The notes under the pieces: generated by a model
The model's database searches: none
Seen by the model: only the letters and a program-made list of their open reading frames with translations
What the model was told of the DNA's origin: nothing
Shown here: piece by piece, positions 1,624 through 16,848 of the stretch
How positions within the stretch are numbered: the first letter of the stretch is position 1
Layout: the number at the start of each line of letters is the position of its first letter
Assembly: GCA_030684695.1 (NCBI GenBank)
Contig: JAUXXX010000019.1
Span: 1-39,877 of the forward strand
From: a bacterium
GTDB taxonomy: Bacteria > Bacillota_I > Bacilli_A > Izemoplasmatales > Hujiaoplasmataceae
DNA length: 39,877 nt
Direction: 5' to 3'
Program-made: the position numbers and the translations under genes

Positions 1624-2697
1624 TTAATATGATAATAATTGTTCTTGTTTGAGTAAAACTCGTAATGCCCCTTCCGCAAGAGCTCTCATTTCATCTTCTC
1701 CTGGATAGATTGTGAGCGGGATGATTGGTGAACAGTATTGTTGTAACATATCAATCAGCGGTTTGTTATAAGCGAGTCCACCCGTGATTAATACCGCATC
1801 AATTTGTCCTTTTGCCACAAAATAGAGGCTACCAATTTCTTTGGCCACTTGATATGCCATGGCTTGTAAGTAAAAACGAGCTTCTTCGTCTCCATCTTCG
1901 ACACGTTTTTGAATGACCAGTCCATTAGAGGTTCCTAAGTAACTCACTAGTCCGCCACCGCCAACAAGCATTCTTTTAATTTCGTCTTTGGTGTGTTTGC
2001 CTGAAAAACACAAATCAATCAATGGATAACTAGGAACTTGTCCGGTTCGTTCAGGAGAAAACGGTCCATCTCCTCCTAAGGCATTGTTCACATCAAGTAC
2101 TTTTCCAAGATGGTGCCATCCTACAGAAATTCCACCACCTAAGTGACATACAATGAGTTTTAAATCGTGATAATCTTTTCCAATCGCTCTGGCATGACGT
2201 AAGGCAATCGCCTTTTGATTCAGTGCGTGGAATACCGAAGTACGATCAATTTCCTTGACACCACTGACTCTAGCGATGTCATGCATTTCATCGATGCACA
2301 CCGGATTTACGATATAGGAGCTTCTACCATTGGCTTTTGCAAATTCAAACGCAAGCATCGCCCCTAAATTAGAAGCATGTTTCCCAAATTGTGCCTTTTT
2401 TAAATCATTGACCATTTGCTGAGTAATCAAATATGTTCCACTTTCCTTGAGTGGGCGAAGCATTCCACCTCTTCCCACAAAGATGTCCATTTGATCCATT
2501 CGATATCCTTGTTCGATCACGAAATCAAGGATGATTTGTTTCCGAAAAGAGAGTTGATCATTGATGTCTGGAAACTGCTTAATGACTTCGACATCATGAC
2601 GAAGGGTCTTTTCTTGAATAAGTTTATCGCTATTAAAGATGGCAACTTTGGTCGATGTAGACCCTGGATTGATTACTAGCATGAGTACATTATTCAC
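1624..2697 (-). CDS. buk: Butyrate kinase (branched-chain acyl kinase)
   Basis: A 357-residue acetate/butyrate kinase-family enzyme. It converts acyl phosphate plus ADP to the free acid plus ATP, the energy-yielding last step of the pathway. The N-terminal VINPGSTSTK phosphate loop, CHLGGGISVG in mid-protein, GGDGPFSPERTG and the C-terminal LITGGLAYN segment are hallmarks, and the length matches butyrate kinases (about 355-360) rather than acetate kinase (about 400). The start is read as GTG at 2697, behind AGGGGTGAT, giving an 8-base overlap with ptb and probable translational coupling; an ATG at 2682 is the alternative. It is the last gene of the bcd-vor-ptb-buk unit. The neighbours suggest isobutyrate, isovalerate and 2-methylbutyrate rather than butyrate as products. 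Confidence 0.93.
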   Translation of the reverse strand: MNNVLMLVINPGSTSTKVAIFNSDKLIQEKTLRHDVEVIKQFPDINDQLSFRKQIILDFVIEQGYRMDQMDIFVGRGGMLRPLKESGTYLITQQMVNDLKKAQFGKHASNLGAMLAFEFAKANGRSSYIVNPVCIDEMHDIARVSGVKEIDRTSVFHALNQKAIALRHARAIGKDYHDLKLIVCHLGGGISVGWHHLGKVLDVNNALGGDGPFSPERTGQVPSYPLIDLCFSGKHTKDEIKRMLVGGGGLVSYLGTSNGLVIQKRVEDGDEEARFYLQAMAYQVAKEIGSLYFVAKGQIDAVLITGGLAYNKPLIDMLQQYCSPIIPLTIYPGEDEMRALAEGALRVLLKQEQLLSY

Positions 2698-3583
2698 AAA
2701 GCATCACCCCTAACGCAATCGAATGTAATTTGGTCGATGCTTCATCGGCACGACTTGTTAACACGATTGGTACTTTCGCACCAATCACCATACCAGCAGC
2801 ACTGGCACTTGCTAAAAATACACTGGTTTTATAAAAGATATTTCCAGCATCTAAATTGGGAAATAATAAAATATCGGCTACTCCTGCTACACTACTATGA
2901 ATCCCTTTGTGTTTGACACTTTCAAGAGAAACTAAATTATCAATCGCAAACGGACCATCGATCAAGAAATCTCCAGGATATTGATGATAATGTTCCATGA
3001 TTGCTTGAGCATCGACGGTAGAAGCAATTTTAGGATTGACTTTTTCTACTGCCGAAACCAAACCAACTTTTGGGATAATATAACCTAATTTTTTAGTTAA
3101 ATACACTGCATTTTCAATGATTTGACACTTTTCTTCCACACTGGGTTGGATGTTCATCGCTCCGTCTGTGATGTAAAGTACGCGATCCAAAGTGGGATAA
3201 GACAACAATCCAACATGGGATAATAGCGGGCGAGATTTAATACCCGTCTGACTATTTACAACTCCTTTTAAGAGAATTTTGGTGTCAATCAGACCCTTCA
3301 TAATGAGATCAGCTTGTCCAGTATTTACTAAGTTCATCGTTTGTAATACTGCATCTTCATCACTTATTGCATGATGAATACTCACTTGTTTTTCAATTTT
3401 TTCTGTCATACAAAAAGCGTTGATTTGATCAGAATTTCCAATCAAAATAGCCTCAATGATTCCTAAATGAATGGCTTCTGCAATCGCATGAATGACCAAA
3501 TCGTCGTGTGCGTTGCACACCACGATTCTTTTTCGTTGTGCGTTTTTAGCTAGGTCAAGTAATTGAGTTACCGATCTAAGCAT
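2690..3583 (-). CDS. ptb: Phosphate butyryltransferase
   Basis: A 297-residue phosphotransacylase-family protein (PTA/PTB fold). It exchanges CoA of an acyl-CoA for phosphate, feeding the kinase encoded directly downstream. Family features are RIVVCNAHDDLVIHAI near the start, ADLIMKGLIDTK in the middle and the C-terminal SASAAGMVIGAKVPIVLTSRAD motif. The start at 3583 gives MLRSVTQLL, normal length, and an 8-base overlap with the upstream gamma-subunit gene. A longer frame to 3625 would overlap it by 50 bases and is less likely. Paired with butyrate kinase, it makes substrate-level ATP from branched-chain acyl-CoAs produced by the oxidoreductase upstream. Confidence 0.93.
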   Translation of the reverse strand: MLRSVTQLLDLAKNAQRKRIVVCNAHDDLVIHAIAEAIHLGIIEAILIGNSDQINAFCMTEKIEKQVSIHHAISDEDAVLQTMNLVNTGQADLIMKGLIDTKILLKGVVNSQTGIKSRPLLSHVGLLSYPTLDRVLYITDGAMNIQPSVEEKCQIIENAVYLTKKLGYIIPKVGLVSAVEKVNPKIASTVDAQAIMEHYHQYPGDFLIDGPFAIDNLVSLESVKHKGIHSSVAGVADILLFPNLDAGNIFYKTSVFLASASAAGMVIGAKVPIVLTSRADEASTKLHSIALGVMLCE

Positions 3584-4139
3584 GTATAAGACCCTGCTTT
3601 CTAATGAAATCTCTTCCTGCTTCAATGGCTTTCACATTTAGTTCAACCATATGAGCTTTTCGTTCTCCTAATACATAGGCCAATACTTTATGAATGGTGG
3701 AATCTTCGAAAATTTTGCTTTTTTCTAAGTAAGCTCCTAGCATTACCATATTAATTACTTGAATACTCCCAAGTTCAAGGGCGATATCATTGATTGGAAC
3801 ACCTATGACTTCGACTCCTTCGACTAAAACAGTTTCACTAACAAGGGAATTATTGTATAGAATAAAACCACCTTGTTTGACACGATCCATAAACTTAATC
3901 AAGGAAGGATAATTGAATGCAAGCAAATGATGGGACTTTAAAAATACGGGAGAATTAATTGGTTTTTTGGAGACAATCACCGCACAGTTTGCGGTTCCAC
4001 CTCTCGTTTCAGGACCATAAGATGGGCTCCACAATCCATTCAAATCTTCACTAGTCGCTGCATAAGCAAGAATTTGACCAGCCATCATGACTCCTTGACC
4101 ACCAAATCCTGCAATTCGAATGTTTACGGCATCATTCAT
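3576..4139 (-). CDS. vorC: 2-oxoacid:ferredoxin oxidoreductase, gamma subunit
   Basis: A 187-residue protein of the POR/KOR/VOR gamma family. It opens with the typical RIAGFGGQGVMMAGQILAYA glycine-rich segment and carries SYGPETRGGTANCAVIVS, a family signature of the CoA-handling subunit. It should associate with the alpha, beta and delta products encoded upstream to oxidise branched-chain 2-oxoacids to acyl-CoA plus CO2, reducing ferredoxin in the cytoplasm. The ATG at 4139 follows AGGTGA by five bases and overlaps the beta stop codon by 8 bases. A GTG at 4148 is possible but lacks a ribosome-binding site. The substrate assignment (VOR rather than KOR) rests on the neighbouring leucine dehydrogenase, ptb and buk. 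Confidence 0.88.
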   Translation of the reverse strand: MNDAVNIRIAGFGGQGVMMAGQILAYAATSEDLNGLWSPSYGPETRGGTANCAVIVSKKPINSPVFLKSHHLLAFNYPSLIKFMDRVKQGGFILYNNSLVSETVLVEGVEVIGVPINDIALELGSIQVINMVMLGAYLEKSKIFEDSTIHKVLAYVLGERKAHMVELNVKAIEAGRDFIRKQGLIHA

Positions 4140-4881
4140 GGAATTCACCTGTATCTTTAAATAGTTTTAATGGGAATACTGGAATCATGTGTTCTTCCAA
4201 CCATTTTAAAGAATCCACTGGCTTAATACCCCAGTTTACTGGACAAGTAGACAAGATTTCTACCATTGTAAACCCACGTTTTTCTTGTTGATATTGAAAC
4301 GCCTTTTTAATGGCTTTCTTCGCATTTCTAATGTGTTTTGGAGTGGTAACAGTAACTCGTTCCAAATAGGCAACTCCATCAATTGTTGCAAACATTTCGC
4401 TGACTTTGATGGGGCTTCCATGTTGTTGTAACACACGGCCAAATGGAGAAGTAGTCGTTTTTTGACCAATCAATGAAGTAGGCGCCATTTGTCCACCTGT
4501 CATACCATAAATGGCATTATTGACGAAAATGACTGTAATGTTTTCACCGCGATTGGCAGCATGAATGGTTTCTGCTATACCAATAGATGCCAAATCGCCA
4601 TCTCCTTGATAAGTAAAAATAATATTATCCGGTAATACACGTTTGATTCCTGTAGCGACTGCACACGCTCTTCCATGAGGTGCTTGTTGCATGTCACAAT
4701 TAAAGAAGTCATAACTAAATACCGAACAACCAACAGATGCAATTCCGATGGTATCTGGAAGTAATCCGAGTTCAACCAAGCATTCGCCAACCAACTTATG
4801 TACGATTCCATGAGTACATCCTGGGCAATAGGTCAAAGCATTGTCTGTAAGACCTGCAGACTTTTGATATTTAACGGCCAT
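4132..4881 (-). CDS. vorB: 2-oxoacid:ferredoxin oxidoreductase, beta subunit (thiamine diphosphate)
   Basis: A 249-residue subunit that binds thiamine diphosphate and a proximal [4Fe-4S] cluster. YCPGCTHG gives Cys19 and Cys22; further cysteines at 52 and near 213 (STCPVNWG) can complete the cluster. The thiamine motif starts at GDGD (93-96) and ends with VNNAIYGMTGGQ. This is the standard beta architecture of four-subunit archaeal/clostridial 2-oxoacid oxidoreductases. It starts at ATG 4881, one base after the alpha stop codon, consistent with coupled translation. Function: decarboxylation of the 2-oxoacid and electron transfer toward the ferredoxin-like delta subunit. Confidence 0.92.
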   Translation of the reverse strand: MAVKYQKSAGLTDNALTYCPGCTHGIVHKLVGECLVELGLLPDTIGIASVGCSVFSYDFFNCDMQQAPHGRACAVATGIKRVLPDNIIFTYQGDGDLASIGIAETIHAANRGENITVIFVNNAIYGMTGGQMAPTSLIGQKTTTSPFGRVLQQHGSPIKVSEMFATIDGVAYLERVTVTTPKHIRNAKKAIKKAFQYQQEKRGFTMVEILSTCPVNWGIKPVDSLKWLEEHMIPVFPLKLFKDTGEFHE

Positions 4882-4882
4882 C

Positions 4883-5950
4883 TTATTTCACCACCGTTTC
4901 TTGGAAGCGTTCAATTGCACGAACTACTTCCTCTACTTCTGGAATCATTCCACCGGTTCTTCCAAAGAACCCAACTGGATGTTTTCCATTGTTTGCGATT
5001 AATACGTCATCAAGCATTTGTCCCAAACTCATTTCAGTACATAAAATACCTTTGATGTTCGATGGAATTTGTTTGAATGCTTCTTTGGGGAATGGCCATA
5101 ATGAAATAGGTCGGATTAATCCCACGTTGATGCCTTTTTCCTTTAAGACTTCTAGTGCACTACGAACAATTCGTGACATGGTGCCATAGGCCACAATAAC
5201 ATATTCTGCTTTTTCCATATTGATACATTCAAAACGCGTTTCATTCTTAATGACGTTTTGATATTTGGCTTGTAGTTTTAAATTGTGATTTTCAAGTTTT
5301 TGCGGATCAATGTTTAAACTTGATACAACGTTTCTACCAGAATGGTTTTTCATTCCATTCGTTGCCCAATCCTTGGGTGGTAAAAACCGTTTTTTGATGG
5401 GTTTGTTAAGATCGACCGATTCCATCATTTGACCAAGTAATCCATCGACTAACACCATGACAGGGTTGCGATAATAATCCGCGATATCAAAGGATTCTTT
5501 GATAATATCAATGGTTTCTTGAATGGTTTCAGGAGCGAAAACGATGACGTGATAGTCTCCATTTCCTCCCCCTCTTGTGGCTTGATAATAATCTGCTTGA
5601 GAAGGTTGTATTCCCCCAAGACCAGGTCCACCGCGCATCACACTTACGATTAAACAAGGAAGTTCAGCTCCAGTAATATAGCTAATTCCTTCTTGTTTCA
5701 ACGCAATTCCTGGCGATGAGGAAGAAGTCATCACACGTTTTCCAGCGCCTGCAGCACCATAGACCATATTAATGGCTGCAACTTCAGACTCTGCTTGAAC
5801 AAACACTTTATTATGCTCAATCATATATTTGGAAAGATATTCTGGTATTTCATTTTGAGGGGTAATGGGATATCCATAAAACGCATCGCATCCACCTAAT
5901 ACTGCAGCTAACCCGATGGCTTCGTTTCCCTTCATCAATACTTTAGGCAT
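4883..5950 (-). CDS. vorA: 2-oxoacid:ferredoxin oxidoreductase, alpha subunit
   Basis: A 355-residue alpha subunit, pyrimidine-binding side of the thiamine enzyme. It starts MPKVLMKGNEAIGLAAVLGG, followed by CDAFYGYPITPQNEI, ESEVAAINMVYGAAGAGKR and MTSSSSPG, all typical of VOR/KOR alpha chains. The C-terminal part (YVIVAYGTMSRIVRSAL onward) matches the transketolase-C-like domain. The ATG at 5950 lies nine bases after GGAGG and overlaps the delta stop by 8 bases; an upstream extension to 6013 inside the delta gene is not needed. Acting with beta, gamma and delta it should make isobutyryl-, isovaleryl- or 2-methylbutyryl-CoA. Confidence 0.92.
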   Translation of the reverse strand: MPKVLMKGNEAIGLAAVLGGCDAFYGYPITPQNEIPEYLSKYMIEHNKVFVQAESEVAAINMVYGAAGAGKRVMTSSSSPGIALKQEGISYITGAELPCLIVSVMRGGPGLGGIQPSQADYYQATRGGGNGDYHVIVFAPETIQETIDIIKESFDIADYYRNPVMVLVDGLLGQMMESVDLNKPIKKRFLPPKDWATNGMKNHSGRNVVSSLNIDPQKLENHNLKLQAKYQNVIKNETRFECINMEKAEYVIVAYGTMSRIVRSALEVLKEKGINVGLIRPISLWPFPKEAFKQIPSNIKGILCTEMSLGQMLDDVLIANNGKHPVGFFGRTGGMIPEVEEVVRAIERFQETVVK

Positions 5951-6167
5951 TTGTAATATCCTCCACAGTGATGACAGAATCAGGACACATAGTGGCACAT
6001 TGTGCACACGCAATGCATTTATCCATATCGGTCACCTTTATAATGTTATATCCTGATTTATTCATTGCTACTTTATCCATGTAAAGAATCTTCACAGGGC
6101 AAAACGCAACGCAAAGCAAGCAGCCTTTGCACTTTTCGTATTCAAATGTTATTCGACCTTTTGGCAT
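5943..6167 (-). CDS. vorD: 2-oxoacid:ferredoxin oxidoreductase, delta subunit (2x[4Fe-4S])
   Basis: A 74-residue ferredoxin-like subunit. Two classic cluster motifs are present: C13-x2-C16-x2-C19-x3-C23-P and C51-x2-C54-x2-C57-x3-C61-P. It carries electrons from the thiamine-bound intermediate to free ferredoxin. A good Shine-Dalgarno (AGGAGG) precedes ATG 6167. It is separate from, not fused to, the other subunits, so the enzyme is the four-chain type. It lies 12 bases after the P-loop ATPase gene. Confidence 0.92.
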   Translation of the reverse strand: MPKGRITFEYEKCKGCLLCVAFCPVKILYMDKVAMNKSGYNIIKVTDMDKCIACAQCATMCPDSVITVEDITNA

Positions 6168-6179
6168 AGTTCCTCCTAC

Positions 6180-6830
6180 TTAATTCCAGCTAGTTTGAAA
6201 GTATCTTGTGAATGGAATAACTTCTCCCGCGAATGTGTAATCAATGGGAAGAAGCGACTTTTCAATGATGGTATAAACAATCGCTTTGTTGGTTTCTTTT
6301 GAAGCTTGACGTAAAAAGGTATCGCCTTCAATCAAATTCTCAACTGTTGTCTCTTTTAATAAATTTGTATTATTAATCAAACCGGTAATTTCAATTTGAC
6401 CGGTAGCTTCAATCTTGGTGATTAGTTTTATTACTTGTTCAACACTAGAGGTCTCCATTCGAAATGGATTCACCACAAGAAATAGATCCACTGGTGTATT
6501 CACGCAATAATCGCCAAACTGCTGGAGCAATTTGGCGCCTAAATCATTCCCGCCCAAGTCATAAATCGCTGTAATAGATTCATCCAAGAAAGGTCGATAC
6601 ACTTCTCCACCGATAAAGGGGAGATCTGCGTACATTCCATCTTTAAGTTGGTTGGATAAGACCTCTACTTGATGACTCTTTAACAAGGCAACTTGCTCTC
6701 TTGAGCGGAAATACGGATTGATAACATCCAAATCAACGACTACATTTGCCCGCTTGATGATGGCTAGATTGATTGCAATCTCTGTTTTACCAGAACCATA
6801 GTAGCCGGTTAAAAAGGTAATACGATTCAT
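6180..6830 (-). CDS. P-loop ATPase of unknown role in the vor operon
   Basis: A 216-residue soluble protein of the SIMIBI-like P-loop NTPase group. The Walker A motif is LTGYYGSGKTE (about residues 7-17). Then come VVDLDVINPYFRSREQ, whose acidic pair resembles the deviant switch of MinD/CobQ-like ATPases, IYDLGGNDLGAKLL (Walker B-like, about 90-103) and GLINNTNLLKETT (about 150-162). No DNA-binding or membrane-targeting tail is visible. Its ATG directly abuts the bcd stop codon with no clear ribosome-binding site, so translation is probably coupled. A role in maturation, cofactor handling or regulation of the iron-sulfur oxidoreductase is a guess from position only. Confidence 0.72.
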   Translation of the reverse strand: MNRITFLTGYYGSGKTEIAINLAIIKRANVVVDLDVINPYFRSREQVALLKSHQVEVLSNQLKDGMYADLPFIGGEVYRPFLDESITAIYDLGGNDLGAKLLQQFGDYCVNTPVDLFLVVNPFRMETSSVEQVIKLITKIEATGQIEITGLINNTNLLKETTVENLIEGDTFLRQASKETNKAIVYTIIEKSLLPIDYTFAGEVIPFTRYFQTSWN

Positions 6831-7901
6831 CTATCGTTTGATGTAATTCGCGTGTAAACGATTAATCGTTTGAATGCGATTCTTTGCATAAACCTTCGCA
6901 GCTTGTTGGGTATCGATGTTTTCACGTTTCGCAATTTCAAAAATTTCAAGTAGGCGATCATGAATCCGTTCAATCTCACGTACGGCTTTGTCACGGTTGT
7001 AGGTTTTTAACTCATGATACACATTGATAAGCCCGCCTGCATTAATAACGAAATCAGGAGCGTATAAAATACCCATATCTTTAATCATGTTTCCATGTTT
7101 TTCTTCATCCATCAACACATTATTGGCCGTTCCAGCAATCACCAATGCTTTGATTTGAGGAATGGTTTCATCATTGAGTACAGCTCCAAGGGCACAAGGA
7201 GCGAACACATCCACATTCGCTGAAAAAATCTTGTCAGGTGTGAGGTATTCGACTTCAGGATGCTCTCTTTTCATCCGATCGATGTGTTTTTGATTAATTT
7301 CAGAGAAATAAATTTTCTTCGCTTTATGTTCTACTAAATATTTGATTAGGTAATAACCTGTTTGTCCAGCCCCTTGAACAGCAAAAGAGTATTTAGAAAT
7401 TTCGTCATCGCCAAAGGTAAAACGTAATGCTGCACGAATCCCATGGAATGCTCCTAAAGCAGTCATTGGGGATGGGTTACCTGATTTTCCTTCAAGTCCT
7501 ACTACATAATCGGTTTCCATATTCACAAAATCCATATCTTTCGTTCCAGTGTTCACATCTTCTGCCGTAATATAACGACCATTTAAACTTTGAACATAGC
7601 GACCAAGTGCACGGAAATAAGCTTCGTTTTTTACAGTGTTTGCATCACCAATTAATACGGTTTTTCCACCACCTAAATTAAGTCCAGCTGCTGCTGCTTT
7701 GTAGGTCATCCCTCTAGATAAACGAAGGCAATCTAATACCGCTTCGTCTTCCGTCTGATAGTTCCAGAGTCGAGTTCCACCAAGTGCAGGCCCTAAGGTT
7801 GTATCGTGGATACAAGTGACACCCTTTAATCCTGTTGTCTTGTCATAAAAATAGACAATTTGTTCATAACCATGCTTCTCCATGTAGTCAAATTTGTTCA
7901 T
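6831..7901 (-). CDS. bcd: Leucine (branched-chain amino acid) dehydrogenase
   Basis: A 356-residue Glu/Leu/Phe/Val dehydrogenase. The substrate domain has GGTRLWNY and the catalytic-lysine region MTYKAAAAGLNLGGGKTVL. The NAD-binding domain follows with AVQGAGQTGYYLI (a GxGxxG variant, near residue 180), and APDFVINAGGLINVYHEL near the C-terminus. The length matches leucine dehydrogenases (about 350-365) and is much shorter than glutamate dehydrogenase (about 420-450). It deaminates leucine, valine and isoleucine to 2-oxoacids, the substrates of the oxidoreductase encoded next. AAGGAGG sits seven to eight bases before ATG 7901. As first gene of the unit it lies behind a promoter with a cre-like box. 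Confidence 0.92.
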   Translation of the reverse strand: MNKFDYMEKHGYEQIVYFYDKTTGLKGVTCIHDTTLGPALGGTRLWNYQTEDEAVLDCLRLSRGMTYKAAAAGLNLGGGKTVLIGDANTVKNEAYFRALGRYVQSLNGRYITAEDVNTGTKDMDFVNMETDYVVGLEGKSGNPSPMTALGAFHGIRAALRFTFGDDEISKYSFAVQGAGQTGYYLIKYLVEHKAKKIYFSEINQKHIDRMKREHPEVEYLTPDKIFSANVDVFAPCALGAVLNDETIPQIKALVIAGTANNVLMDEEKHGNMIKDMGILYAPDFVINAGGLINVYHELKTYNRDKAVREIERIHDRLLEIFEIAKRENIDTQQAAKVYAKNRIQTINRLHANYIKR

Positions 7902-11990: not shown

Positions 11991-13547
11991 CTAAAATGCT
12001 TCCGATACTGTCTTTCCTTGTAAATGCAAGACCAAATAATCTGGGCCTCCGGCTTTTGAATCCGTTCCTGACATATTAAATCCACCAAAAGGTTGGTATC
12101 CAACGATGGCTCCTGTACATTTTCTGTTCAAATACAGATTTCCAACATGGAAGTCTTCTTTTGCTCTTTCTAAATGTTCCCGGTTGTTCGAAATGATTGC
12201 TCCTGTTAACCCAAATTCTGTGTTGTTTGCTACTACCATTCCATGGTCAAAATCGCGAACTTTGCACACAGCTAAGACAGGTCCAAAAATTTCTTCTTGC
12301 ATTAAACGTGCATTTTCATCCAAATCAATGATAACAGTAGGTTCAATGAAATAACCTACTTCATCCAAGTAACCTCCACCAGCCACAAGTTTTCCTTCTT
12401 GTTTGCCTATTTCAATGTATTCGACAATTTTATCAAAATCACGTTTGTCATTCACTGGTCCCATAAAGGTAGTACTAAGAGATGGATTACCTACTTTCAA
12501 TGCGTTGGTTTTAGTAATGATTTTTTGAACTACCTCATCATACACATCTTGATGAATGATAGCACGTGAACATGCACTACACTTTTGACCGCTAAAACCA
12601 AATGCACTCTTTACGATTGCTTCTGCAGCCAACTCAATATCACAATTTGAATCCACTAAGATACCGTCTTTTCCACCCATTTCTGCAATTACACGTTTTA
12701 ACCAGATTTGACCTGGTCTCACTTTCGCAGCTTCTTCGTAAATATTGATGCCTACTTCTTTCGATCCAGTAAATGATATGAACCGAGTTTTTGGATGTTT
12801 GACAAACCAATCACCAATTTCTGAACCTTTTCCTGGACAAAAATTGACAACCCCTGCAGGAAGTCCCGCTTCAATCAATGCTTCCATAAATTTATACGCA
12901 ATGACTTGAGTGGTCATAGCTGGTTTCATAATAACGGTGTTACCTGCTACGATAGCGGCTGAAGTCATTCCTACTAGGATAGCTAATGGGAAGTTCCATG
13001 GAGCGATGATCGCTCCAACACCAAGTGGAATGTACTTATACGTGTTTCGTTCCATATTACGACGACTGAGTACACAATCATCAATGCGTTCTAATGCAAG
13101 CATTTGACGTCCATAGTATTCTAAGAAATCAATGGCTTCTGCGGTATCTCCATCTGCTTCTGCATACGATTTTCCTGCCTCTTTGGTCATCCATGCACTA
13201 AACTCATGTTTGCGACGGCGAATAATTCCCGCTGTTTTAAATAAAACATCTGCACGTACACTTGGTGAAACTCTTTTCCATTGTTCAAATGCATTAAGTG
13301 CAGAATCCATTGCGAGTTTTGCTTCATCCATCCCCGCTTGAAAAATATGACCAATGGCTTCTTTGTGCATACTTGGGTTTTTGGATGTATACAAACGACC
13401 TGTTTGTATCATCTTTCCCCCGATGATGAGTGGATAGGTCTTACCTAAATTTGCTTCGACATATGCCAATGCTTCTTGATATGCTACTTGATGTTCCACT
13501 TTCGTAAAATCAGTTAATGGTTCCGTTTGATAGGAATAAATAGCCAT
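11991..13547 (-). CDS. pruA: L-glutamate gamma-semialdehyde (P5C) dehydrogenase
   Basis: A 518-residue aldehyde dehydrogenase of the RocA/PruA class. It oxidises glutamate semialdehyde (the open form of pyrroline-5-carboxylate) to glutamate with NAD. Visible landmarks are [13 protein letters not shown] (oxyanion asparagine region), [10 protein letters not shown] (nucleotide-binding turn), [11 protein letters not shown] (general base glutamate), [15 protein letters not shown] (catalytic cysteine) and [11 protein letters not shown]. The length matches Bacillus RocA (about 515). AAGGAGG precedes ATG 13547. It is the last gene of a six-gene unit whose other five encode a flavin/iron-sulfur amine dehydrogenase, which points to complete proline-to-glutamate oxidation. 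Confidence 0.93.
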
Positions 13548-13570
13548 AAATCCTCCTTATAAATCGTATT

Positions 13571-14716
13571 TTACACAACAGAATGTTCCACGTCTGTAGT
13601 GGTTTGTAAATGGAATCGTTTGATATCTAAAATCGATACATCAAGAGTTGTTGGATGGCCTAGCATGATTTCAGACAATAAAATACCTGTCATTGGAGCG
13701 AACATGAATCCATGTCCAGAGAAACCGCATGCCATAAAAAACCCTTTAACTATGTCACTTTCACAAATGATTGGTTGACGATCGGGAGACATATTGTACG
13801 ATCCTCCCCATTGACGAATGACTCGTAACTCTCCAACCAATGGTAAAATTTCACAAACCGTTTTTGCCATTTCATCGAGAAATTGATGACTTGATGAAAT
13901 GTCATGATCACGTGGTGCCAAAGGATTGCTCCTTCCCATTAAAAAGGAACCATGAGGAACTTGTTGACAATAAATATTTTTAGAAAATGACATGACCATC
14001 GGCCCTTGCATTTTCTCAATGGGCTCTGTGACCAATATTTCATGGTTTTCAGAATATACAGGAATATCAATGCCGACCATATCCCCAATCTCTTTGGAAT
14101 AACCTCCCGCTGCATTGACTACTTGATGACAAGTATAGGAGTTTTTGTTCGTGTGGACAACAAATTTACCCAATTCTACTTGATCAATAGATTGAACCGA
14201 CTCATAAAAGAAAAATTGGACTCCAAGTCTTTTCGCAGCTTGATAATAGGCATCGGTCATTTTAAATGGATTCAAATGACCATCAGTTTTACAAAAAGTT
14301 GCACTTAAAAAAGCATTTGGATTGAGATGTGGAACGATTTGTAAAGCTTCTTCTTTGGTTACTACTTTAGAAGGAATACCAATTTTATGTTGTAATCTTA
14401 CGTTTTTTGCAAATTGAAGTTCTTCTTGTTTGGTAGTAGCCAATATCAAGTAGCCTTCTTGTTTAAATTCGATATCTCCAGAATATTGTAGCTCTTCTTT
14501 CGCAATTTCAAAAAACTCGATACTCTTTTTTGCCATCACACAATTGGCTTCTGTTCCCCATTGTTGACGAACTCCAGCTCCGCATCTTCCAGTAGCGCCA
14601 TTCGTTAAATATCCTGAGTCCAAAACAACAATATCTTTTGCACCTCTTTTTGCTAAATTATAGGCAATCGACGTTCCGGAAATTCCAGCCCCAATAATCA
14701 CGATACTACTTGTCAT
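13571..14716 (-). CDS. FAD-dependent amine oxidoreductase, HcnC / proline dehydrogenase beta-like
   Basis: A 382-residue D-amino-acid-oxidase-fold (DAO) protein. The N-terminus SSIVIIGAGISGTSIAYNLA is the Rossmann FAD-binding motif, with D/E for the ribose in VVLDSG. GRCGAGVRQQWG and the C-terminal GGSYNMSPDRQPIICE and CGFSGHGFMFAP segments are typical of sarcosine oxidase, HcnC and the beta subunit of archaeal dye-linked L-proline dehydrogenase. It is the probable substrate-oxidising subunit, taking electrons from a secondary amine and passing them to the iron-sulfur and flavin partners encoded upstream. ATG 14716 has GGAGG nine bases upstream and overlaps the BFD gene by 11 bases. Proline as substrate is inferred from pruA lying 23 bases downstream; hydroxyproline, sarcosine or opines remain possible. 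Confidence 0.83.
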   Translation of the reverse strand: MTSSIVIIGAGISGTSIAYNLAKRGAKDIVVLDSGYLTNGATGRCGAGVRQQWGTEANCVMAKKSIEFFEIAKEELQYSGDIEFKQEGYLILATTKQEELQFAKNVRLQHKIGIPSKVVTKEEALQIVPHLNPNAFLSATFCKTDGHLNPFKMTDAYYQAAKRLGVQFFFYESVQSIDQVELGKFVVHTNKNSYTCHQVVNAAGGYSKEIGDMVGIDIPVYSENHEILVTEPIEKMQGPMVMSFSKNIYCQQVPHGSFLMGRSNPLAPRDHDISSSHQFLDEMAKTVCEILPLVGELRVIRQWGGSYNMSPDRQPIICESDIVKGFFMACGFSGHGFMFAPMTGILLSEIMLGHPTTLDVSILDIKRFHLQTTTDVEHSVV

Positions 14717-14987
14717 GATCACTTGCCTCCTTAATGGCTTTCAATTTGACACCAGCAGTTAAGGGTCTCACTTTAGGAGCAGCGACATCTTCGACTTTAA
14801 CATGCAAAAACAAGGCAATTTCACGTTGGATTAACTCTTGACAAGTGGAACCTTGACAAGGTCCCATTCCAACACGTAACTGTCTTTTCAAATCTTCAAA
14901 AGTGGTAAATCCTTGTTCGAGCAATGCATGAATTTCATCTTTGGTGATGTCTTCACACCGACAAATAATCACAGGTGATTTAGGCAT
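14706..14987 (-). CDS. BFD-like [2Fe-2S] protein, stand-alone C-terminal domain of the HcnB type
   Basis: A 93-residue protein with Cys9-R-Cys11 and Cys44-x4-Cys49 (VIICRCEDIT... GMGPCQGSTC). This is the BFD-type [2Fe-2S] motif normally found at the C-terminus of the NAD/FAD subunit in HcnB, opine oxidase and the alpha chain of archaeal proline dehydrogenase. Here it is a separate gene. ATG 14987 follows GGAGG and overlaps the ferredoxin gene by 8 bases. It should shuttle electrons between the two flavoprotein subunits of the complex. Confidence 0.85.
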   Translation of the reverse strand: MPKSPVIICRCEDITKDEIHALLEQGFTTFEDLKRQLRVGMGPCQGSTCQELIQREIALFLHVKVEDVAAPKVRPLTAGVKLKAIKEASDHDK

Positions 14988-15462
14988 GTTTCCTCCGAAT
15001 AGTAATGACTTCATACACAAGTGAAGAATCAATTTGAATGGACACAAGCAACGTACGATCTTGTCTTCTCGAAACTAACGTTTGAAGTATGTTTGCATCT
15101 CCTACAATCTCACCACTTCGATTCACTGCGTGCCACACTTCACCTTTTTGAGGGCGAGGTAAAAACTCATACGGAATCTTGATAATGGCGTGCGGATGAT
15201 GGACTTCGGCCACAATGATTGCCAGTCCAGGACAAGATGTGACACAAATGGTACAGCCAGTACATTTGTCGAAATCGACTTTGGGTTGTTGATTGATATC
15301 AGGCCCGATAATAATCGCTTGAAACGGACAACTGGTTTCACAAGGGTTACAAGGAATGTCTTCATAACATTCAATGATTGCTTTTGGTTTGGATAATTTT
15401 GATTGTTCAGGAAACTGATCTTTGACTTGTTCGATAGTAGGAATTCCGGTCTTATGTAACAT
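14980..15462 (-). CDS. Ferredoxin-like 2x[4Fe-4S] subunit of the proline-dehydrogenase-like complex
   Basis: A 160-residue iron-sulfur protein. Cluster I is C38-x2-C41-x3-C45-P with C32 as a likely extra ligand (C-x5-C-x2-C-x3-C-P); cluster II is the regular C67-x2-C70-x2-C73-x3-C77-P. About 80 further residues form a C-terminal domain. In size and position it resembles the roughly 20-kDa gamma subunit of the four-chain Thermococcus L-proline dehydrogenase. ATG 15462 is preceded by GGAGG and overlaps the FAD gene by 11 bases; the frame continuing to 15510 is not needed. It probably links the complex to a ferredoxin or membrane acceptor. Confidence 0.83.
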   Translation of the reverse strand: MLHKTGIPTIEQVKDQFPEQSKLSKPKAIIECYEDIPCNPCETSCPFQAIIIGPDINQQPKVDFDKCTGCTICVTSCPGLAIIVAEVHHPHAIIKIPYEFLPRPQKGEVWHAVNRSGEIVGDANILQTLVSRRQDRTLLVSIQIDSSLVYEVITIRRKHA

Positions 15463-16546
15463 TGCGGGCCTCCTTAATCTTTTCAAGTCCTTGACGTGTC
15501 TTCTTGCCAAATGGACCGCTTCGTAAATATTCTAATTGTTGATGAAAATCCGCAATTTGAGAGTTGATTTCTTCCGACTTCATTCCTAACTTATTAGATA
15601 CATAGAGTCCTGATAAATACCCTTCCACAATGGCACTTGAAGCTTCTTCAATGCCATAGACATCTCCTGCTACAAACAAGCCATCATACGATGTTTCATG
15701 AGTGTCTGAAGCAATGGGTACGATACCCCCAAATTCAGGAATGTACTTCATATGTACTCCTGCCATGGATAACAATTGGTGCATGGGTGCTAAACCAACC
15801 GATATGCAACAAGCATCGCATTGGATGGTCTTTTCTGTACCAGGAATTGTCTTCCAAGATTCATCTAGTTGAATGGTTTCAACTCCCGTTAGGAAATCAA
15901 CACCATGTGCTTTTTTAATGGTGGTATTGGTAAGAATAGGAACGCCTAATCGACGAAGTTTTGAAGCATGGACTTTATATCCTCCAATCGAAGACGCTGC
16001 TTCGATTACTGCTTTTACTTCCACTCCTGCTTGTAGTAATTGATAACTGACAATGAGTCCAATGTTTCCTGAACCAACCATGACAATGGACTGACCAGGA
16101 TACACCCCATACACATTCATGAGCGTTTGAACTGCCCCTGCGCCATAGATCCCTGGTAAATCATTTTGTTCAAAAGCAAGTACTTTTTCCATTGCTCCTG
16201 TGGATACAATAATGGCTTTGCATTGATATTTAAAATAGGCTTCATTCTTCATAACCGTTACAACTTTGTCGGGGTAAATTCCCAGCACAGTTGCGTTTTT
16301 TTCAATCGTTAAAAACGCTGAATAGGGCTCTAAGTCTTTAATTAGTTTCGCTGCAATGTCAAATCCTCTGGTCTTTGCATATTGCTTTTCGGATCCAAAA
16401 AATTTGTGAGTTTGCTTGACTAACTGACCACCAAGCTTTGAGTTACGTTCAAATAAAGTGACTGAAACTCCTTGTTTTACTAAACTATAAGCAGCACAAA
16501 GCCCCGCTGGCCCGCCACCCACAATAATGACATCTGTGTGTATCAT
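15452..16546 (-). CDS. FAD/NAD(P)-binding oxidoreductase, HcnB / proline dehydrogenase alpha-like
   Basis: A 364-residue pyridine-nucleotide-disulfide-type flavoprotein. DVIIVGGGPAGLCAAYSLV near the start binds FAD; SIVMVGSGNIGLIVSYQLL (about residue 150) is the second dinucleotide-binding fold; GLFVAGDVYGIEEASSAIVEG near residue 300 is the ATG/GD motif that contacts FAD. It lacks the C-terminal BFD domain of HcnB, which is encoded separately two genes downstream. It is likely the subunit that reoxidises the complex, perhaps with NAD. The start at 16546 follows AAGGAG and forms an ATGA overlap with the upstream gene; an extension to 16648 would lie within that gene. Confidence 0.85.
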   Translation of the reverse strand: MIHTDVIIVGGGPAGLCAAYSLVKQGVSVTLFERNSKLGGQLVKQTHKFFGSEKQYAKTRGFDIAAKLIKDLEPYSAFLTIEKNATVLGIYPDKVVTVMKNEAYFKYQCKAIIVSTGAMEKVLAFEQNDLPGIYGAGAVQTLMNVYGVYPGQSIVMVGSGNIGLIVSYQLLQAGVEVKAVIEAASSIGGYKVHASKLRRLGVPILTNTTIKKAHGVDFLTGVETIQLDESWKTIPGTEKTIQCDACCISVGLAPMHQLLSMAGVHMKYIPEFGGIVPIASDTHETSYDGLFVAGDVYGIEEASSAIVEGYLSGLYVSNKLGMKSEEINSQIADFHQQLEYLRSGPFGKKTRQGLEKIKEARNVT

Positions 16547-16848
16547 CGTAGCACTCCTTTTCCAGATTGGAATTCTACTCTCATGCCTGGTAATAATTCT
16601 GTAATACAGGTTTTGACATTTGGAATGCCATCTACTGTCATATGACAACTAGAGCAGTTCCCAATGGCACAATAAAAACCACGTGGACGTTCTAAATGGA
16701 TACTTTTGGATAACACTTTGATACCACTTGCATGTAAAGCAGCGGCAATCGAATCACCAACTTGACCATACATTACTTCACCGTTGTAAAAAAAATGAAT
16801 CTTTTCCTTGTCGATTAGTTCCAGAATTGGATGCTCTTTGATTCTCAA
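16543..16848 (-). CDS. [2Fe-2S] ferredoxin-like subunit, HcnA type
   Basis: A 101-residue protein of the Fer2_4 family. C60-x4-C65-x2-C68 (CAIGNCSSC) and C81 supply the plant-type [2Fe-2S] ligands, with GDSIAAALHASGIKV typical of HcnA, SoxA N-termini and LhpF. It is the first gene of the six-gene proline-catabolic unit. The start appears to be TTG at 16848 behind GGTGAT; no ATG lies in a suitable place. It serves as a small electron-transfer subunit alongside the FAD protein encoded next (4-base overlap). Confidence 0.83.
   Translation of the reverse strand: MRIKEHPILELIDKEKIHFFYNGEVMYGQVGDSIAAALHASGIKVLSKSIHLERPRGFYCAIGNCSSCHMTVDGIPNVKTCITELLPGMRVEFQSGKGVLR

Follow-up and report, generated by a model that had tools for sequence, protein, structure and literature searches.

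Why is the gene for a small P-loop NTPase, matched by no Pfam or NCBIfam model over cut-off, placed inside an operon for a 2-oxoacid:ferredoxin oxidoreductase? Oxidoreductases of this type are central to the anaerobic fermentation of amino acids, to the supply of low-potential electrons and to reductive CO2 fixation; as far as we know, they are usually regarded as self-sufficient. The window, i.e., the whole stretch of 39,877 nucleotides that was analyzed, carries the operon on its minus strand. Using Pfam and NCBIfam models for the neighbors, the gene order was found to be leucine/branched-chain amino-acid dehydrogenase (LeuDH; 6831..7901; ELFV_dehydrog_N, 96 bits), the NTPase (6180..6830; 216 aa), a 74-aa 2x[4Fe-4S] ferredoxin-like delta subunit (Fd; 5943..6167; Fer4 matches, PorD/OorD-like), the oxidoreductase alpha subunit VorB (4883..5950; NF005507, 532 bits at a cut-off of 399), the TPP-binding beta subunit VorA (4132..4881; TPP_enzyme_C, 76 bits), the gamma subunit VorC (3576..4148; POR, 122 bits), a phosphate butyryltransferase-like protein (Ptb; 2690..3625; PTA_PTB, and PRK05805 with 305 bits) and a butyrate kinase-like protein (Buk; 1624..2697; TIGR02707, 480 bits, over cut-off). 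The oxidoreductase acts in the breakdown of branched-chain amino-acid acids. The 216-residue ORF was present exactly as the first-pass annotation had described it, with the motifs GYYGSGKTE (residues 9-17), DLDVINPYFRSRE (residues 33-45) and DLGGNDLGAK (residues 91-100), and the model assignments confirmed its position between LeuDH and the oxidoreductase subunits. That annotation had also proposed translational coupling. The stop codon TAG of LeuDH (complement of 6831-6833) indeed abuts the ATG of the NTPase (complement of 6828-6830) and no Shine-Dalgarno-like run was found 5' of this ATG, which makes coupling plausible. The Fd gene possesses AGGAGG ahead of its ATG and extends past the start of VorB at 5950. 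Elsewhere in the window, at 11991..16648 on the minus strand, genes for an aldehyde (P5C-like) dehydrogenase, FAD oxidoreductases and a ferredoxin-type protein are clustered; judged by the translations alone, they resemble a proline/hydroxyproline or sarcosine-type dehydrogenase system.

The protein was characterized by its ORF and translation, a family alignment, an AlphaFold model and Foldseek. In an alignment of 64 sequences from several phyla 16 residues were invariant (G9, G12, G14, K15, E17, D33, D35, N38, P39, D91, G93, G94, G98, N121, R124 and N154), a conservation far beyond chance. The Walker A motif GYYGSGKT plus the invariant Glu17 is encoded at 6780..6806 on the minus strand. Throughout the family the motif reads GxxGSGK[TS]E, and GxxASGKSE in a KOR-linked type described below, in which positions 12, 38 and 94 differ; D33, D35, D91, R124 and N154 are essentially invariant across all subfamilies. 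The VOR and KOR subfamilies differ within residues 36-45 and 94-98. The deviant Walker A lysine (KGGxGK[ST]) was absent throughout the alignments. No Cys column exceeded 20% in 162 sequences, and no Cys was invariant in alignments A1, A3 and A4. The base-recognition motif NKxD was likewise absent from the 64 sequences; N153-N154-T-N-L stands at that place without an Asp, which would be consistent with ATP rather than GTP. AlphaFold models of the VOR-type and the KOR-type protein each reached a pLDDT of 89. The top 50 Foldseek matches of both were nearly all SRP/FtsY GTPases, with HypB in addition for the VOR type; the best TM was about 0.55, and there was no close solved relative. The two independent models thus agree with the SIMIBI-like assignment made beforehand and support membership in the SIMIBI class, at this TM at class level only. 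By sequence, no significant PDB relative of the window NTPase was found, the PDB profile matches being weak and partial (MinD/ApbC/ParA/SRP54). Weak HMM similarity was greatest to CbiA/ParA/Mrp models, with kinases also among the weak Pfam matches. A search for viral relatives in PHROGs and BFVD yielded nothing useful.

Does the protein belong to one of the known families of SIMIBI NTPases? With the Fe-S carriers Mrp/ApbC/NBP35/NUBPL (PF10609, NF041136, NF008669) it shares a similar stretch from the P-loop to switch I, including DxDxxxP, and 52 of 64 members matched PF10609 and 51 of 64 MrpORP, weakly (best E about 1e-6). However, the likeness is limited to the first ~45 residues in the PDB profile matches, and the deviant lysine, the CXXC cluster motif and any conserved Cys are lacking. 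CooC, NifH, MinD and ParA (CbiA, PF01656) are likewise SIMIBI P-loop proteins, and 58 of 64 members matched CbiA weakly; the window protein scored 13.2 bits against a gathering cut-off of 25.4, while some other members scored higher. It carries an ordinary GxxGSGKT instead of KGGxGKT, and no metal ligands. Membership in the Mrp/CooC/NifH/MinD group was therefore rejected for want of the signature lysine and conserved Cys, and membership in CbiA on the basis of the Pfam cut-off. NTPases of the HypB/UreG/MeaB type are encoded beside their client enzymes, a logic similar to that of the present locus, and Foldseek also matched HypB (5auq, E 3e-5, TM about 0.5). Nevertheless, the NKxD guanine motif, whose absence led us to reject HypB/UreG membership, the His/Cys metal site and a significant sequence match are all missing. 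The SRP GTPases Ffh/FtsY (NG domain) gave the best structural matches to both models, yet at a TM of only about 0.55, and the NTPase has no N domain, TKxD or M domain and an unrelated genomic context. By analogy with maturation NTPases, service to an adjacent complex metalloenzyme is a possible way of working, and an iron-sulfur role of the CooC/NifH kind may be part of it. Of the CooC- or NifH-like maturation ATPase suggested at first, the connection to 2-oxoacid oxidoreductases has held up, while the defining features of CooC and NifH have not.

A search for relatives with one genome per species identified 174, of which the closest 80 were kept for a reading of their neighborhoods. Fd and VorB were found directly 3' of the NTPase on the same strand in 79 of the 80, spanning Bacillota, Atribacterota and Desulfobacterota; both are visible even in L020, where the locus is truncated, and in the remaining case, L080, the contig ends 53 bases past the NTPase. 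The unvarying core is NTPase-Fd-VorB-VorA-VorC, with LeuDH, Ptb and Buk present in some loci and absent from others. LeuDH adjoins the NTPase mainly in Izemoplasma-like relatives. Ptb-Buk lie downstream in the Izemoplasma-like relatives, upstream in the Clostridium and Atribacterota loci, and are absent beside the Neobacillus loci. A linkage specific to LeuDH or to Ptb/Buk was rejected, as both vary while Fd-VorB is constant; for Buk it was rejected further, since Buk occurs in nearly all ATPase-less genomes too. As side observations, a PAS-sigma54 activator gene, likely a regulator, lies beside or near the NTPase in the branched-chain catabolic clusters of L169-L171.

Since these 80 relatives were the closest ones, genome samples not picked for linkage were also searched. 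Among 295 genomes from the window's phylum, 16 contained a full-length NTPase (E <= 1e-40), and all 16 have VorB adjoining on the same contig (Fisher p 1e-17). VorB over cut-off was present in 32 genomes, 16 of them without the NTPase. The second sample comprised 250 genomes from the phylum of Clostridium acetireducens, with the VorB-type subunit called at E <= 1e-60. There the NTPase was found in 158 genomes, 157 of which have the VorB-type subunit (Fisher p 3e-29); in the exception, G377, KorA immediately follows the NTPase (L205), so that a VOR/KOR-type oxidoreductase is present in 158 of 158. Conversely, 37 of 194 genomes with the VorB-type subunit have no NTPase. In a class of Desulfobacterota the NTPase was present in 85 of 117 genomes, nearly always as a single copy. 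Twenty loci were inspected over a wider range, and in 19 the NTPase preceded the VOR genes. The order in these 19 is Fd-VorB-VorA-VorC after the NTPase, with no Fd ORF parsed in three; the twentieth locus ends with its contig. The dependence is one-way: many VOR genomes lack the NTPase. The conserved linkage to vor/kor genes that had been predicted was thus recovered in the neighborhoods as well as at the genome level, and the functional tie to 2-oxoacid oxidoreductases is strongly supported by adjacency across phyla and by co-occurrence. In total, the NTPase accompanies these enzymes in hundreds of bacteria of several phyla. A few orphan copies lie away from any oxidoreductase gene (L148, L152 and L154), that of L152 near an ammonium transporter.

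The family comprises three homologous subfamilies, one VOR-linked (the type of the window), one KOR-linked and one FolC-linked or FolC-fused, which profile-profile alignments (hhalign) unite over their full length (E 2.6e-45 for the KOR-linked one, and 2.8e-76). KOR-linked members (L112-L130, L141, L202-L231) reach ~95-155 bits against the family profile and group as a single, fully supported clade at the end of a long branch. In most of these loci their gene, often preceded by dnaX-ybaB-recR-bofA, lies directly 5' of a deeply different KOR-type alpha/beta/gamma set. The FolC-type NTPase is either the product of a gene next to folC, within valS-folC operons, or a C-terminal extension of FolC (folylpolyglutamate synthase) itself. 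Eight fusions were found (L132-L139, e.g., L133:6110-8116:-, near valS) and 10 unfused pairs (L142, L151, L157-L162, L164 and L166). The FolC-linked genomes examined have a VOR operon elsewhere without an NTPase of its own, which suggests that the NTPase acts in trans. A fusion of NTPase and oxidoreductase (Rosetta stone) was not found among the loci examined; the one candidate, a 677-aa ORF in L232, seems to owe its length to a spurious extension on the upstream side, where the frame is rich in GC.

How do VOR operons without the NTPase differ? On the VorB tree the presence of the NTPase requires four changes, compared to a mean of 18.6 after shuffling. A well-supported clade of 13 operons, sister to the clade of the window, has kept LeuDH-Fd-VorB-VorA-VorC with the NTPase cleanly missing and LeuDH and Fd adjacent. 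In the NTPase-less L082, L084, L086-L093 and L095-L097, Val replaces the otherwise near-invariant Pro80 of VorB (TSSSSPG loop), possibly reflecting a change of substrate preference. Signature residues of the VOR subunits tied to NTPase presence and common to all ATPase-less lineages were not found, the changes being lineage-specific only, as with P80 to V of VorB in the 13-operon clade. The clean absence of the NTPase from VOR operons that are otherwise intact, of which there are many, shows that it cannot be obligatory for maturation and speaks for a conditional or efficiency role rather than that of an essential maturase.

The partnership with 2-oxoacid oxidoreductases is well supported by these observations, and the NTPase very probably serves them as a dedicated helper. 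For the kind of help, we favor a dedicated, non-essential, ATP-driven chaperone for assembly or activation of VOR/KOR over an energy-charge regulator, a metabolite kinase and a hitch-hiking gene, as a tentative reading whose chance of being right we put slightly short of even. It is suggested by the constant adjacency to Fd-VorB while LeuDH, Ptb and Buk vary, by the one-way dependence at the genome level, by the independent occurrence of a homologous subfamily at a deeply different KOR-type operon and by the separate VOR operons of the FolC-linked genomes. Furthermore, the SIMIBI fold is common to NTPases that serve metalloenzymes, such as HypB, and the weak HMM similarity to CbiA/ParA/Mrp models points in the same direction. 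Against it stand the many VOR operons without the NTPase, including the 13-operon clade near the window, the lack of a conserved Cys column, in which the sequences depart from known Fe-S ATPases, and the association with FolC, for which Fe-S maturation does not account. The protein would be a soluble ATP-binding accessory, of the VOR type here and of the KOR type in the sister subfamily, probably a dimer as a SIMIBI protein, and would bind ATP-Mg2+ through GxxGSGKT, D35 and D91. In its ATP state it may bind oxidoreductase that is still apo or inactive, the contact most likely lying near the face of the ferredoxin-delta and alpha subunits, and hydrolysis could then drive assembly or (re)activation. 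Candidate steps are the insertion of [4Fe-4S] or TPP, subunit docking and the rescue of stalled or oxidized enzyme. Such a chaperone-type helper without a cluster of its own would raise the yield or activity of the enzyme and not be absolutely required.

The absence of metal or cluster ligands and the VOR operons kept without the NTPase in other lineages would be explained by an activity regulator, which senses ATP/ADP and gates mature VOR/KOR by binding, with no role in assembly. It might set the balance between oxidative decarboxylation and reductive carboxylation, or halt the enzyme at high ATP, and in many operons the NTPase indeed lies near the fermentative, ATP-yielding Ptb/Buk genes. 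However, this adjacency is inconstant, as the Neobacillus loci show, Buk is also found in almost all genomes that lack the NTPase, and the conserved Walker A/B residues suggest turnover and not sensing alone. We regard this regulator as possible but rather improbable. Another reading, a small-molecule kinase or ligase, takes up the fusion and adjacency to FolC, itself an ATP ligase of folate: the protein would produce or alter a compound (2-oxoacid, CoA, TPP or a folate-related one) that VOR/KOR and FolC use as substrate or cofactor. All three subfamilies share invariant polar residues that are not part of the phosphate-binding motifs, and the invariant N121-x-x-R124, R44 and N154 would line the putative substrate pocket; in the KOR subfamily positions 38, 94 and 12 have changed along with the partner enzyme, and kinases occur among the weak Pfam matches. 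Nevertheless, the fold matches are switch NTPases of the SRP/HypB type and not small-molecule kinases, VOR/KOR require only the ubiquitous TPP, CoA and Fe-S, and the presence of VOR/KOR in every sampled NTPase genome fits a protein partner better, so such a kinase appears unlikely. Very unlikely is an energy-coupling partner, whose hydrolysis would drive a conformational gate at ferredoxin-delta and push electrons into VOR/KOR for reductive carboxylation (acyl-CoA + CO2 -> 2-oxoacid). Such a protein would resemble the nitrogenase Fe protein or the activator of 2-hydroxyacyl-CoA dehydratase, but with the clusters residing in a separate subunit. Also very unlikely is mere hitch-hiking, in which an ATPase of general housekeeping function, unrelated to these enzymes, would lie in their operons by chance. 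The few orphan copies and the non-VOR neighbor of the FolC-fused copies would be in line with it, but the adjacency holds across phyla and two oxidoreductase types, and the co-occurrence at the genome level (158/158 and 16/16) disfavors it.

No description of the family was found among the open full-text papers searched. The protein is best classed as a SIMIBI NTPase dedicated to an enzyme, of a known kind but from an apparently undescribed family, and with a mechanism that is as yet hypothetical. A widespread NTPase not found without VOR/KOR, yet missing in some VOR lineages, implies that these enzymes are assembled or controlled through a further layer, so far undescribed, and could account for the variable activity of recombinant 2-oxoacid:ferredoxin oxidoreductases. 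The natural pairs of operons with and without the gene make its role directly testable, and through the VOR/KOR link hundreds of genes now without annotation acquire a context that can be put to use. Finally, VOR genes and the NTPase were found clustered with an IlvD-like dehydratase and an HpaB-fold protein (4-hydroxyphenylacetate hydroxylase/4-hydroxybutyryl-CoA dehydratase type) at L131:4961-11200 and L140:3068-8120, a gene content that suggests an unusual acyl-CoA pathway.
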